From NCBI GenBank assembly GCA_030737835.1, contig JAUJYN010000029.1:1848871-1912870 (forward strand): DNA of 64,000 nucleotides, written 5' to 3'. Both the position numbers and the translations under genes were made by a program. Origin of the DNA: Acorus gramineus (lineage: Eukaryota > Streptophyta > Magnoliopsida > Acorales > Acoraceae). Below are positions 3,436 to 42,676 of the stretch, piece by piece. Under the pieces are notes generated by a model. That model was given only the letters and a program-made list of their open reading frames with translations. It searched no databases and was not told where the DNA came from. Every line of letters starts with the position of its first letter. Position 1 is the stretch's first letter.

Positions 3436-4781
3436 TATCACGCCCCAGGGCGGCCGTCCCCGAGGCGCAGCAATGGTATATATGATATCAGCAGTCTATA
3501 CAGGAGGTCAATAACATACCCTAAATAACATCAAAAATAACAACACAGACAACAATGAGGTTGACATGATATATACACAAATAGCGGAAGCTAAAAGACT
3601 GAATCTGTAATTCAAAAGACATATTACAGACCCGATACATAATCAACTGTTCTGTGAGAGCCAATATATACAACGACATCCAAATATAATACAAACATGT
3701 GCCCAAGCACGGAACACTATACATACAATCAAAGGGGGGGATGCTGAATGGCCTCTCACACTCAGAGCGTGACGCTGCTCCGCTACTGCTGACGTGCCTC
3801 GGGGAGCTCCTCCTTCAGATCCGACTAAGATATAACTGGAGAAAAATATATGCGAGGGGTGAGTCACATGCTCAGTGAATAGCACAACCCATGCATCACA
3901 GTTCATATTACCTTACACAATTCATAGCCCCTAAGTGGCAATAACTACACAATCCAGTGGGTCGTTACATCGCCAACCCACTACACCCTCACCCTCACCC
4001 TCAAACTGGTGACATGGTCTTTTGGGACTGACTAGGCTGTTAATCACCCTTGGTCCACCGATAGTCCCTTCTCCACTTCGTAGCTCGCCTGGTCTACTCC
4101 CACGATTCAGCACAGTCCGAAACACAATCAGGAGGTACCTACTGATGGGAGCCATCTGTCAGGACGACCTATCTAACGCTGAGGAGTCCCTACACGGATC
4201 CAACGAAGGGAAGAGAAACAGCCTACCCACACGGATACGATCCACTTGGATCCACCGACACCGATTGCAACTCTACTAATGTCATGAATTCTTCAGAATT
4301 CCTCCAGGGCGCATAACTAAGATGCGGGGAGACATATATTATAACAACACGGTTATAATATTCTCTAAGGCATGCTAATAATCATAAGCTCGCATTTGAT
4401 TTAAATAAATTAAACTAAATGGGAAGCATTTATAGGTCGAGGCTTTCCTAGCATGGAAACATGGTATCCCGATGTATAGGCCTCTATCCACAACATAAGG
4501 GTGCATATTCCTAGCATGCAAAGCCTATGGTGGCATGGATACAACAAAATGATCATGCATAGCACATATTACACTTATTACAAATTAATACGCAATTATG
4601 GTGCCCCATGGGAGGGCAATGCACGAATACGTGCATCGAACGCCTCCCTACTGGGTTGGATTGTCCCACTCACCAATACCCGGGTCGTCGCGTGACCGCT
4701 CGTCAAGATCTGCAAGACATGGGAAACCAAAATGGTGAGTAAAATACACAAATACACAAGAAATACGCTAGAAATACCCAA

Positions 4782-6824: not shown

Positions 6825-9731
6825 TGTCACGCCCCAGGGCGGCCGTCCCCGGGTCGCGGCAAGTGTATACAAGATATCAGCAGTCTAAACAGGGAATCAA
6901 TAAATCACTCTAACCAACAACTAAAACGACAACAACAAAGATGAAAGCGAGGCTGACATAATATATACACAGGTGCGGAAGCTAAAAGACTAAGTCTGTA
7001 ATCTAAAAACATACTACAGACTCGATACAAATCAAATGTCCTGTGAGAGCCAATATACACACATACATCCAAATAATACACAACTGGGTGCCCAAGTACA
7101 GAAATATATACATACAATAACAAGGAAGGATGCTGATGGCCTCAAAAACTCGCGGGACGTAGCGCTACTCCGCTACTGGTGCAGTCGCTCAGGGAGCTCC
7201 TCCTTCAGATCCTCCTCAGTAATCACTGGAAAAATAATTATGCAAGGGGTGAGCCACACGCTCAGTGAACAGCAAAACCCATGCATCACAGCTTATATCA
7301 ACCACAAATAATCAACAACCAGCCTCAAAGTGGCTTAACAACATAATCCGGTGGGTCGTTACATCGCCGAACCACCACACCCTCACCCCTCAATAGGTGA
7401 CATAGGATATTGGGACTTATAATCATCCATACACATCCATACACTCTCACCCTCACCCCTCAATAGGTGACATAGGATATTGGGACTGATAATCATCCAT
7501 ACACATCCATACACCCTCACCCTCACCCCTCAAAAGGTGACATAGGATATTGGGACTGACTAGGCTGTTAATCATCCTTGGTCCACCGATAGCCTCTCCT
7601 CCACACCGTAGCTTGCCTGGTCTACTCCCACATTCAGCACAGTCCGAGTCCAAGATCAGGAGGTGCCTACTGATGGGAGCCCTCTGTCAGGATAGCCTGT
7701 CTAACGCTGAGGAGTTCCTACACGGATCCAACGAAGGGAAGAGAAACAGCCTACTCACACGCATATGATCCACTCGGATCCGCTGACAACACATCTCTAC
7801 AACTCTAATGTCTTGAATTCATCAGAATTCCTCCAGGGCGCATAACCAAGATGCGGGGAACATGCATTAATATAGACGGGAAAAGAAACCTTGGGAGGGC
7901 ACCATGAGGTCCCGATACAGGACGTCCCGACAACCAAACAAGGAACACGGAGCACCCTAGCCCGGGTCTCAATGTTGACCTCGCAAGGCCCCTTAATATT
8001 TCCTAAGGCATGCTATAATATTACAAGTTGCATTTAATTTAACAAATTAAACTAATAGGACGCATACAAAGGCCGAGGCTTTCCTAGCATGATAACAAGG
8101 TGACAAGATGCATGGCTCTTACACAACCTAAGGGTGCAAGTCCCTAACATACTCAGTCTAGGGTAGCATGCATACTACATATCAATCATGCTGCATGGAT
8201 TACATATTAAACAGGTTAATATTAATCTATGGTGCCCCAGGGGAGGACGGTATACGCCCAAGTGCATATAGCGCCTCCCAACTGGGTTGGATTGTCCCAC
8301 TCACCGGAAGTCGGGTCGTCGCGCGACCGTCCGTCAAGATCTGCAAGACAGGGTATCAACTTGGTGAGTTAAAATCCACAAATACCACAAAAATACACAA
8401 AATACTCTAAAAATACCCAACACTCGGGCAAACGTACATACGGCCCGTACGCACGTTAGCCCGAGCACCCCGACTCACTCCCGCACCCCCGGCAACCACC
8501 CACACGGCCACCCGCCCCCGGATGCACCGCCGCTCCCCAGCCCGTGCACCCAGGCGCCCTGCCGAGCCCCTGCCCGCATGCCAGGACACGCCGCCGAGCT
8601 CCCCAGGTGCACCGCGCGCTCACTGCGCCCCAGCGCAGTCGCCCGCGCGCAAACCACACGCCTCGCGCCCAGCGCCTCGCCCCGCGCGCACCCCGCGCGC
8701 ACCACTGCTCGCATCACCCACTCGACCAGCACCCCCAGCACGCCCAGCGCCAGCACGTCCAGTGCCCAGCACGCCCAGCACGTCCAGCGCCCAGCACGCC
8801 TGCTGCGCCTGTGCTGCCATCCTACCCGGGGCAGACTACCACCCTGCCCGAGCACCTCTGCACCACCCACCGGCCACCAAAGGCCTCCGACCGCCCCCAA
8901 TCACCACCGACAGCCACCAGCCACCCTCCTCACTCAACCCCACCCTGCTAACAAGCATCTAACATGAAAAAGAGGGAAAGAAAGCTTACCCAAATGAAGG
9001 AGAGCAAAAGAAGGGATCCGGAGGATCTTCGTGCACCGAAACGCCTCCCAACGGATCTCCACCACCAAGACCTCTTCCTACCTAAAATGGGGCTGAAAAC
9101 AAGGGAGAATAGAGGGGGGTTAGAGGGGACCAAAATTTTCAGAACTCGAATCCGAGAACACCGGGGGATAGATCGGGACCGAATCTAACCTTTCTATGTT
9201 TTGGGTTTTGAGTTTGAAGAACTCTAGGTGGCTCAAAACTAAGAAAAGGAGAGAGGGGGAGAGAGAAAATGAGTTTGAGAAGATGATGAATAGTGTAGGG
9301 CTAATTGCTACTCACTTATATAAGTCAAACCACTTGGATTAGGATTAAGCAAGCTTAATTAGGGTTTAAGTGAGGCTTTAAGTGGGATTTGACTTGGGTC
9401 AACCCAACCACACAAAAAAAAAAAAGGGTTGACCAAGTCATGGGCCCACTTTGACCGAGTCAACTCTCCCAATGACTTCTCGCTCGGTCAAAACCCGGAT
9501 ACGCCCCGAAACTGTGAAATTTTGAAAACGTTACCGGAATTTGATGAAATTTTTGTGAGTGGCTTAGAATGGCACCAGGACACATAATATGCAGTTAGAT
9601 TTTCAATCGGAGTCCTCTAGCTCAGGACGATAGCTAACAGTCCAAAATTTTAGCGGTTCCGATCGAAAAATGAAAAAACTCAAAAACTGCCAAAATGCTC
9701 CAATGGTTACCAAAGTGACACATATATAACA
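6825..9731 (-). mobile_element. Solo A-type LTR inserted in E1 integrase
   Basis: A 2.9-kb LTR in the same sense as E1, bounded by TGTCACGCC and ATATATAACA. Target duplications AGATG lie at 6820-6824 and 9732-9736, and integrase coding continues on both sides, so the insertion is certain. There is no internal region, so it is a solo LTR left by recombination between the two LTRs of a full element. It has the full LTR plan: U3 block (about 9489-9670), TTGAC cluster (about 9387-9491), TATA (9314-9325, TTATATAAGT on the minus strand), ACTATTCATCATC about 30 bases downstream, and a CpG tract (about 8440-8820). Three near-copies of a CCCTCACCCCTCAATAGGTGACATAGG segment lie around 7375-7545. Confidence 0.95.
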
Positions 9732-40609: not shown

Positions 40610-40628
40610 ACCGCCCTGGGGCATGACA
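40610..40628 (+). mobile_element. Terminal scrap of B1 LTR
   Basis: CCGCCCTGGGGCATGACA is the terminus of the B1 LTR interrupted at 28585. It abuts non-retroviral DNA at 40629. Confidence 0.75.
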
Positions 40629-40737
40629 ACAACAACAGCAAAAGCACCAGTAACAATAACAGCAGAAGACCAATACCAGCAAAAGCATAAGCAAAAGCAA
40701 AAGCAACAGCAACAAAAGCATGTTATAATACTTCATT
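40629..40737 (+). other. AGCAAA-rich low-complexity DNA
   Basis: The stretch is built from AGCAAAAGCAACAGC-like units with no pyrimidine runs. It is the left edge of the DNA transposon remnant, starting directly at the LTR terminus. No coding is supported. Confidence 0.6.
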
Positions 40738-40847
40738 CATAGCGTATACTTTTCTAATATAGCACATACGTTTCTAACATAGCGTATTCTGTGCACATAG
40801 CATATACTGTTTTAACATCGCGTATACTGTCCCAACATAGCATATAC
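40738..40847 (+). repeat. Motif cluster AACATAGCGTATAC, direct, six copies
   Basis: Six copies of a motif close to AACATAGCGTATAC occur at 40738, 40755, 40775, 40794, 40813 and 40832, spaced about 19-20 bases. The same motif occurs in an intron-like stretch (41421-41577) and, inverted, at the right end (42612-42672). Such subterminal motif arrays, direct on one side and inverted on the other, are known as transposase-binding sites in CACTA and some other plant DNA transposons. Confidence 0.8.
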
Positions 40848-40899
40848 TTATATAAAAGTATACGTCTCTAATAATGTATATATTTTACAGGCCATTTGA

Positions 40900-42384
40900 C
40901 ATTAGAGCCAAGTGAGAAGGCAGTCCCTAGAAAAACAAGAACTGAGAGGGCCAGTACGATCAAGGGAGAGGCCGCTAAGACCGCTAAGGGGTCACTGTAT
41001 AGGGACGAATTACTAGGGGTAACCCCACTGCACTCCCAAAGGTTCAATTAAAAAGACCAAAAAAGGTAAAGGTAGTCCAAGATCTAGAAGAAGATGACAC
41101 AAAATTACAGAAGGTTATAAAATTATCGAAGAAGGAAGCTGAAACACAGAAGCCCGTATATAAGGAAGTAACCCCGGCACTAATCAATGTAAGTACCATA
41201 TCGATAGCTTCGGTGTTGTGAAACCTCTTTTCATTTAATTTAAAATAAACTTCCTTTTATTACCTTTGTCAAATTTCCCTGGAAAATCGACAATTTCAGA
41301 TGAAGAACGCCAGATCATTTTGGAATTCTTCCAGCTTGAAATGAACGAGTCAGTTTGATATTTTCTCCATTGTTTAATATTATCTCCAGTAATAGTTTTC
41401 TCATTCTTTGATAGTTTCCTGACATTGCGTTTACTTAGCTAACATAGCGTATACCGTGCTAACATAGCGTATACCGTGCTAACATAGAGTATACCTTGCT
41501 AACATAGCTTATACTAATCTGATATAGTGTATACTAATCTAACACAGTATATACTAAAATAACATAGCATATACATTATAATTTGCAAACTTCATGCCTT
41601 GTAGTGCTGTGGTTTGGAAGCAAGAAGACGTTCACGTGAGACCACAGGACCTATTGGCAGTGATTGAAAATGATTGGCTGGGTGAAGAGGTCATAGATGG
41701 CCTAGGGTTGATGTTCGCCAATAGGGAGCATGCGCATGACCCTGTGGACAAGATGAAGTTTGTGGAGTCCACTTTCAATGTGTGTATATCCTTTTTTTTC
41801 TTTTGTGGTTTGTCCTTTTAGTGGTATATGCTAGATAATTTTCTAATGTAGATATATTTTAAACACAACATATGTAGACTTGAGGCGGACCAAGCCCTGA
41901 AATTCCTCCAGGAGCAGTGCTTCAAGCTAGAGGAGCTTGGAGCGGTGGGGAAGGTTGTGTTCCTTTGTGGCACGACTACCATTGATTACTGCTGGTCCTA
42001 GACATGGTAAAGAATACATATGATGTATTCAACTCCACCTACAACCCTAGGCACTACACATACGCCAAACAAGTGGTACGTGCTGCACTTAACTTTCAAA
42101 TTCTCCAATATTAATACATAATATCGTTTGAACTCTATTTTTCATGTTATCCGGACTTGTAGGTGGGCTTGTTGAAGCGTTACATGGGGGATACATCAAC
42201 ATTCAAGGTGAACGAGAATTGTTGGTGTCCAACCCAAAAAAGGGGGCAAGATTGTGGTGTCTTCATCGCACATTGGATAGACTGTGTGTTCCAACGACGC
42301 GAATTCTACCTATCCAGTGAGCTCTACATTGACTTCTTGCGGGCTAAAATCACTGCTTCTTTTTTATTTGGTGAACCTGTTTGA
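40900..42384 (+). pseudogene. Ulp1-like C48 peptidase gene, decayed, transposon-borne
   Basis: Exon-like blocks on the + strand: a charged N-terminal part (about 40905-41188; LEPSEKAVPRKTRTERAS, then KLSKKEAETQKPVYKEV) ending at a GTAAGT donor (41189); ISDEERQIILEFFQLEMNE (about 41298-41355); VVWKQEDVHVRPQDLLAVIE and DWLGEEVIDGL (about 41606-41780); a histidine-bearing block (41880-42075) ending at a GTACGT donor; and a last exon (42163-42384) with the catalytic Cys in QKRGQDCGVFIAHWID. The presumed catalytic His codon (41980-41982) is followed by a TGA where Trp is expected, FNS stands where the Asp of a DS motif is usual, and the frame shifts in at least two places. Plant Ulp1 proteases remove SUMO; many copies ride in MULE or CACTA transposons. 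It is a remnant. Confidence 0.8.
41421..41577 (+). repeat. 20-bp tandem array, eight units
   Basis: Eight units at an exact or near-exact 20-base period, consensus CTAACATAGCGTATACCGTG with drift to CTAATATAGTGTATACTAAT toward the right. The array is the same motif as in the cluster at 40738. It lies between two Ulp1 exon-like blocks. Confidence 0.9.
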
Positions 42385-42676
42385 TCTGTGGTGATGTATG
42401 TTGTATGAACATGTGTGTTGGGTGGGTGATGTATTTAAACAATTTTGATACAATTTACACAGCATATCCAGTATCATATGAACATGTGTTTTGACGGTTT
42501 TGTAATATGAAAGTGTTTTAATATTTTTGTAATACGAACAATCCCCAAGTATACATTTTCATATTGATAGATATATACTAGTTGGTGGCTGTAATAAAGA
42601 GACAATTTACATATTAGTATAGGCTATGTTAAAATCATATACGCTATGTTAAAATGTGTACATGCTATGTTATATG
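42385..42676 (+). other. Right end of Ulp1 transposon with inverted motif copies
   Basis: AT-rich DNA follows the last Ulp1 exon. At 42612-42672 there are three copies of the array motif in the opposite sense (TATAGGCTATGTT, TATACGCTATGTT, TACATGCTATGTT) at a 20-base spacing. The end is cut by the E3 LTR at 42677, so no terminal inverted repeat or target duplication can be read. Confidence 0.75.

Follow-up and report, generated by a model that had tools for sequence, protein, structure and literature searches.

For the repeat arrays described here, the closest parallel that we see comes from Arabidopsis, in its VANDAL/VANC anti-silencing system. In the sections of the published accounts considered here, VANC21, a DUF1985 protein, binds the motif YAGTATTAY and causes methylation loss, VANC21 and VANB21 carry tandem repeats of the VANC21 motif in their introns, and VANA21 is preceded by such repeats (PMC5735166). 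VANC6 motifs are also present in the unrelated AT9TSD1 (PMC5735166), and a nonautonomous element, PAC, has been described with possible VANC6 target repeats (PMC12312487). VANC genes that bear Ulp1 are said to act like other VANC genes (PMC13317346). Jittery-like Mutator-like elements (MULEs) with ULP sequences have been published for grapevine and melon (PMC2528002). The present analysis concerns a stretch of 64,000 nucleotides of Acorus gramineus DNA (C67:1848871-1912870), hereafter the window, and the transposon family of which it holds a fragment.

Reading of the sequence and a motif scan both yield three motif clusters in the window, of six, eight and three copies with the third set inverted, and TRF gives the same three arrays, so that the preliminary description of these clusters is confirmed. 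When up to three mismatches are allowed, the scan returns 19 matches vs. 3.94 expected and a maximum of 8 in 100 shuffles, and 17 of the 19 make up the three clusters. The first cluster starts on the forward strand at 40736, 40756, 40776, 40794, 40814, and 40834 (spacings 20, 20, 18, 20, and 20 bp), the second runs on the same strand from 41421 to 41561 as eight units exactly 20 bp apart, and the third starts on the reverse strand at 42617, 42637, and 42658 (spacings 20 and 21 bp); exact copies of the motif are found at 41441 and 41461 (2 of 17). In CACTA (En/Spm) transposons, a short motif is clustered in the subterminal repeats, with its sense reversed between one half of the element and the other. 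The preliminary description took the clusters in the window for the end signature of an unnamed DNA transposon, comparing them with the subterminal repeats of CACTA and some other plant DNA transposons. A plant DNA transposon it is, and the opposite-sense clusters in its two halves are shared with CACTA, but the ends are not CACTA ends (they read GGAAAAT.../GGGTATT...), the target duplication is 9 bp rather than 3 bp, and the transposase is of the FAR1/MULE kind, which together rule out CACTA and point to Mutator. Nor are the arrays an end signature: they are internal, the outermost lying ~0.7 to 0.8 kb from the ends of copy A and the large ones centrally, so that a CACTA-style confinement of clusters to subterminal regions was not found.

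As judged from its sequence, the element is a MULE of the FAR1/Jittery type that carries an Ulp1 gene. Aligning uncut copies, as had been proposed, gave a 9-bp target duplication, the usual length within the range of 8 to 11 bp for MULEs, and degenerate terminal inverted repeats of ~60 bp. Left ends start GGAAAATGATATACTCAGCCCC, and a 34-letter end pattern, with up to three mismatches, occurs at 31 places vs. 0 in the control. Among three copies, the target duplication is exact in one and partial in another: L015 has ATTGTGCAC on both flanks (9/9), the flanks of copy B, AAATATTGA and AAATATTAG, match at 7/9, and a search at the ends of copy A found none. The terminal inverted repeats are identical at 42 of 58 positions in copy A and 42 of 62 in copy B, with scores of 19.3 and 16.9 vs. 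shuffle maxima of 10.0 and 10.1, respectively, above all 500 shuffles. The ends of L015 give an insignificant inverted-repeat match (4.8 vs. a shuffle maximum of 9.6); not every MULE has terminal inverted repeats.

Between these ends lie two convergent genes, a DUF1985-like/Ulp1 protease gene on the left in forward orientation and a FAR1-MULE transposase gene on the right in reverse orientation. The transposase matches the FAR1 domain PF03101 (E 7.7e-15, 55.8 bits, cut-off 28.1) and the MULE domain PF10551 (E 1.1e-6, 29.4 bits, cut-off 27.6), and the scanned transposase exon, at E up to 1, matched solely FAR1, MULE, and ZSWIM1-3. The DUF1985 match in the accessory gene (E 8.4e-6, 26.2 bits) is below the Pfam curated cut-off of 35.1, and among the copies examined the DUF1985 exon is stop-free over its length only in L021 and L022. 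The Cys motif of the protease, DCG, is kept in 12 of the 13 family sequences that show this stretch (NCG in L027), and the WHDYHW...VLD stretch is present in family sequences with variations and some stops. Elsewhere in the genome, C53:1311619-1327833 and C53:2097626-2121912, ~0.8 Mb apart, match in the places of their arrays and ends, and C1 holds a mirror-image pair at 26.245 and 26.303 Mb; both pairs are probably segmental copies. At L023:4047-4345, a fragment of the element forms an apparent inverted duplication (foldback) with a motif array at its center.

The window copy is a decayed middle fragment of this element (40627..42676, forward), homologous to copy A at ~3759-4137 and 7236-8872. 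LTR retroelement sequence adjoins it on both sides, as expected from the earlier suggestion that LTR retroelements hide the element's ends here. Within the fragment, array L3 (40736..40847, forward, six units) lies in a putative intron of the Ulp1 gene, followed by a 3′ splice site, ...ATATTTTACAG, at ~40890 and a decayed, probable coding stretch of that gene (40891..41190, forward) similar to L022:5705-6046. Array L4 (41421..41574, forward, eight units at exactly 20 bp) lies in another putative intron, with a 3′ splice site, ...GCCTTGTAG, at ~41604; both splice sites were judged by eye. Next come the His-Asp exon of the Ulp1 protease (41839..42111, forward), with stops and a frame shift in the window copy, and the exon for the Cys part of Peptidase_C48, which contains QDCGVF (42163..42384, forward; Pfam PF02902, E 2e-4, 21.7 bits, cut-off 20.7). 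The initial view of the locus as belonging to a DNA transposon with an Ulp1 gene is upheld. Array R3 (42617..42671, reverse, three units remaining) lies between the 3′ ends of the convergent genes on the transposase strand; in the homologous L015 the transposase stop codon, judged by eye, is at ~4785, which places R3 beyond the stop.

A DNA search with window positions 40900-42600 gave at least 63 matches on many contigs (best 40 of 58 candidates scored), of which twenty matching stretches were compared first and others added later. The missing right part of the window copy is very likely the sequence at C67:1956505-1960001, found ~65 kb downstream with its orientation unchanged, since the window piece ends at ~A 8872 and the downstream piece, L032, begins at A 9113, the latter being the edge of the stretch examined. 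Window positions 40900-42600 are nearly identical to C60:71501-73199, and the downstream part likewise has a counterpart at C60:129367; this second copy on C60 stems either from a haplotype that the assembly did not collapse or from a segmental duplication of recent date. In two copies, the start of LTR retroelement sequence coincides with the border of a motif array (window 42677 and L018:8104).

The arrays were masked and located by their flanks, a row being defined as a cluster of at least two matches with up to two mismatches. The 25 sources searched gave 78 rows, each within ~180 bp of one of seven homologous positions; the rows are not all independent, since the copies are related to each other, L031 and L022 overlap, and L024 is a repeat of the window copy. 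In the Ulp1 half, arrays L1, L2, L3, and L4 lie forward at ~A 1250, 2780, 3908, and 7740, and in the transposase half R3, R2, and R1 lie reverse at ~A 8880, 10545, and 11890; the window copy has L3, L4, and R3. L1 is ~0.8 kb upstream of the DUF1985 exon and L2 directly after it, L3 and L4 end ahead of ordinary-looking acceptor sites, R2 is flanked by a transposase exon on either side, and R1 closely precedes the first coding exon and is followed by an acceptor-like site. Thus, with introns and splice sites called by eye from sequence, six positions are in putative introns or upstream leader DNA and one, R3, is between the 3′ ends of the genes. An array inside the gene, which the preliminary description had called unusual, is therefore the rule, and the transposase gene shares the arrays through R1 and R2, a point that had been proposed as a check. 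Unit numbers differ between element copies. An ordinary satellite, another candidate considered, is weakened, as the arrays recur in a MITE and, within a single element family, at seven places.

Of the 78 rows, 73 run in the sense expected for their half (left, forward; right, reverse), so that the opposite-sense clusters predicted at other loci do occur. Five rows break the rule, four at R1 and one a weak two-match cluster in L020; three of the four at R1 overlap opposite-sense matches of the motif, which is partly palindromic. The sense changes where the two convergent genes meet, and their convergence makes "sense to its gene" inseparable from "inward from the nearer end."

Across the 398.6-Mb assembly that contains the window, an exact 14-mer of the motif occurs at 60 places vs. 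3 for the reversed control, a two-unit pattern with up to three mismatches at 278 vs. 0, and a degenerate two-unit pattern with up to two mismatches at 608 vs. 0. Unit statistics were drawn from 57 arrays with at least three matches, the duplicates L024 and L031 being excluded, and comprise 271 units, 28 of them in register yet below the similarity cut. The 20-bp pitch of the preliminary description stands (neighbor spacings are exactly 20 bp in 166 of 204 and a multiple of 20 in 186), but the conserved part is shorter than its 20-bp motif: the unit is a core of ~15 bp, TAACATAGCGTATAC, and a variable 5-bp linker. Core positions hold 0.85 to 1.77 bits and linker positions 15 to 19 hold 0.2 to 0.62 bits; position 20 holds 1.48 bits although it was unused for unit selection, which supports this delimitation of the core. 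A pyrimidine occupies position 19 in 211 of the 271 units, and a T occupies position 20 in 248, giving YTAAC. At core positions 8 and 9, CG (121 units), CA (64), TG (44), and TA (26) occur in a mix that matches the decay expected of a methylated CpG (n = 271). Between copies, at five of the seven array positions, cores diverge by 14.1%, linkers by 37.9%, and flanks by 19.6%, a core-linker contrast that is partly biased, as similarity-based unit selection lowers core divergence and misaligned units raise that of the linkers.

The motif also occurs in a gene-less MITE of ~288 bp (L035:1649-1938), studied here through L035 and twenty copies (L036-L055) from the best-scoring matches (40 of 2772 first-look candidates scored), with ends located in 20 of the 21. 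A 9-bp target duplication with at least 8 of 9 bases matching, one-base shift allowed, flanks 16 of 20 copies vs. 1 of 20 in a shifted control, some of the duplications being of low complexity. The left end of the MITE is similar to the right end of copy B, and its internal sequence differs from that of the element. In the consensus the first motif unit starts 58 bp in from the left end, adjoining the terminal repeat, and at least one pair of units spaced by 20 bp is found in 19 of the 21 copies; the right end has weak motif matches of mixed sense only. The left-end pattern, with up to three mismatches, occurs at 778 places vs. 0 in the control, a count of ends and not of arrays. Conservation of the MITE array after insertion was sought and none was seen, the core scoring scarcely above the remainder (0.922 vs. 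0.915 in the middle).

FAR1-MULE relatives at ~60 to 68% protein identity are numerous among 133 matches, and 12 convergent transposase/Ulp1 pairs no more than ~3 kb apart were counted by eye. Four sister elements were covered in part: L056 and L057 over the transposase and a convergent Ulp1 protease part, their DUF1985 side being either missing or at the very edge; L033 over the transposase, including leader and second intron; and L034, broken beyond this, over the leader and first exon. The parts covered contain no cluster of the motif, neither in the transposase leader of L033 and L034 nor in the next intron of L033, and no tandem array of at least four units with a period of at least 10 bp, so that the idea of sister subfamilies having their own, different arrays is not borne out in these four partly covered elements. 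The left ends of L033 and L034 resemble that of the MITE, as judged by eye. Of the four, L057 alone has a mildly overrepresented 8-mer, ATATACCA (9 vs. a maximum of 7 in 100 simulations); the same test in L015 gives 8 vs. a simulated maximum of 9, with 9-mers at 8 vs. 5. As the four sister elements are array-free in the parts covered, the arrays seem confined to one lineage, and a DUF1985/Ulp1 or FAR1 gene seems to need no such arrays.

Because its transposase is of the FAR1/Jittery type by domain matches, not VANA-type, the element is not filed as a VANDAL; the VANA transposase is MuDR-like. In other respects, the likeness to VANDAL/VANC covers, in the sections of the two accounts considered here, a MULE in which a DUF1985-type gene accompanies the transposase, tandem repeats of short motifs within introns and other noncoding DNA, unit numbers that vary between copies, degenerate terminal repeats, and the occurrence of the same motif in a nonautonomous element (PMC5735166, PMC10398659). 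From the same sections, VANC motifs have 8 to 9 bp, whereas the motif here has ~15 bp at a mostly 20-bp pitch, and demethylation by VANC is reported, whereas for the present element it is a prediction. Part of the core (AGYGTATAC) may resemble the VANC motifs AGTATTAC and AGTTGTAC as cited in those sections, a similarity that we offer as a lead. KAONASHI/KI-MULE and the Ulp1-bearing VANC (KIU) genes share with our element an Ulp1 domain reverse to the transposase gene, but KI-MULEs, in the passages considered, are non-TIR elements with a mudrA gene, whereas here the transposase is FAR1-type and the terminal repeats are recognizable (PMC13317346, PMC2528002). The Jittery-like MULEs of grapevine and melon agree in having a Jittery-type transposase, a ULP sequence downstream, and 9-nt target duplications, but the portion of that account considered here mentions no motif arrays (PMC2528002). 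Short interrupted repeat cassettes (SIRCs) likewise consist of short direct repeats with diverse spacers, are linked to MITEs, and occur in VANDALs, but SIRCs, in the text considered, are defined by a pattern search, in contrast to one motif at a fixed pitch in one family (PMC10342631). Among the papers searched, none joins MULE, Ulp1, tandem repeats, and introns, and none joins subterminal repeats, MULE, transposase binding, and tandem repeats; Sasaki et al. 2022 (EMBO J, e110070) may overlap with some of the present findings.

The regular pitch, the conserved core with its variable linker, the noncoding placement, and the presence in a gene-less MITE suggest that the arrays are protein-binding sites in DNA. 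The reading that we favor, to which we give about an even chance, is that they are cis-acting, phased binding sites of a FAR1/Jittery-type MULE that serve anti-silencing in a VANC-like manner. The DUF1985-Ulp1 protein, or a partner, would bind the ~15-bp core cooperatively at the 20-bp pitch, at helically phased sites in introns, leader, and intergenic DNA; the bound protein would strip silencing marks from the element, and both element genes would then be expressed, as with VANC on VANDAL. We infer the binding, the identity of the protein, and the anti-silencing effect alike from the features just named and from the Arabidopsis parallel. Weighing against this reading are the sister elements, array-free in the parts covered, the DUF1985 match below its cut-off, the partly biased core-linker contrast, the MITE core that is scarcely more conserved than its surroundings, and the five rows of unexpected sense. 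A broader version, tentative and less probable, is that VANC-type anti-silencing arose or was rebuilt in a TIR MULE of the FAR1/Jittery type. The DUF1985-Ulp1 protein would then read a 15-bp core that includes a CpG, in arrays distributed across both genes at a helically phased 20-bp pitch, and a high-copy MITE would exploit this by carrying the same landing array.

The FAR1-MULE transposase might instead bind the arrays, as repeats of subterminal type, to assemble a transposition complex. In En/Spm, TNPA binds subterminal repeats to this end. The arrays of the two halves do face each other, and that of the MITE starts 58 bp from one end beside the terminal repeat, but the outermost arrays of copy A are ~0.7 to 0.8 kb from its ends and the large ones central, the other end of the MITE has weak, mixed-sense matches only, and L033 and L034, with MITE-like left ends by eye, have no arrays in the leader nor, for L033, in the next intron; we regard transposase binding as unlikely. 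We hold it equally improbable that the arrays have no function, being a small satellite amplified by slippage in tolerant noncoding DNA and copied with the element: the arrays examined are all in noncoding stretches, unit numbers vary among copies, and the sister elements examined do without arrays, but the linkers have diverged more than the cores while the pitch was kept, one core is common to seven positions in two genes, and the motif recurs in a MITE of different internal sequence. An RNA-level role, with the units as repeated branch-point/acceptor-like or intronic regulatory signals, would fit the YTAACATAG that each unit reads in the sense of its gene, the pyrimidine and T preferences at positions 19 and 20, and the placement of most arrays in putative introns or leader DNA, sense to the gene, but it is very improbable given that R3 lies past the transposase stop codon, outside introns, that the gene-less MITE has the same array, and that ordinary-looking acceptors lie downstream of the arrays.

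If the anti-silencing reading is true, then sequence-specific counter-defense by transposons would extend past the VANDALs to a second branch of MULEs, and the target of the anti-silencer would be unusually regular, with a mostly 20-bp pitch and a CpG in its core. Through the high-copy MITE, which shares this target, one could naturally test whether nonautonomous elements profit from the escape, and a ready comparison would come from the sister elements, whose genes are of the same kinds but which are array-free in the parts covered.
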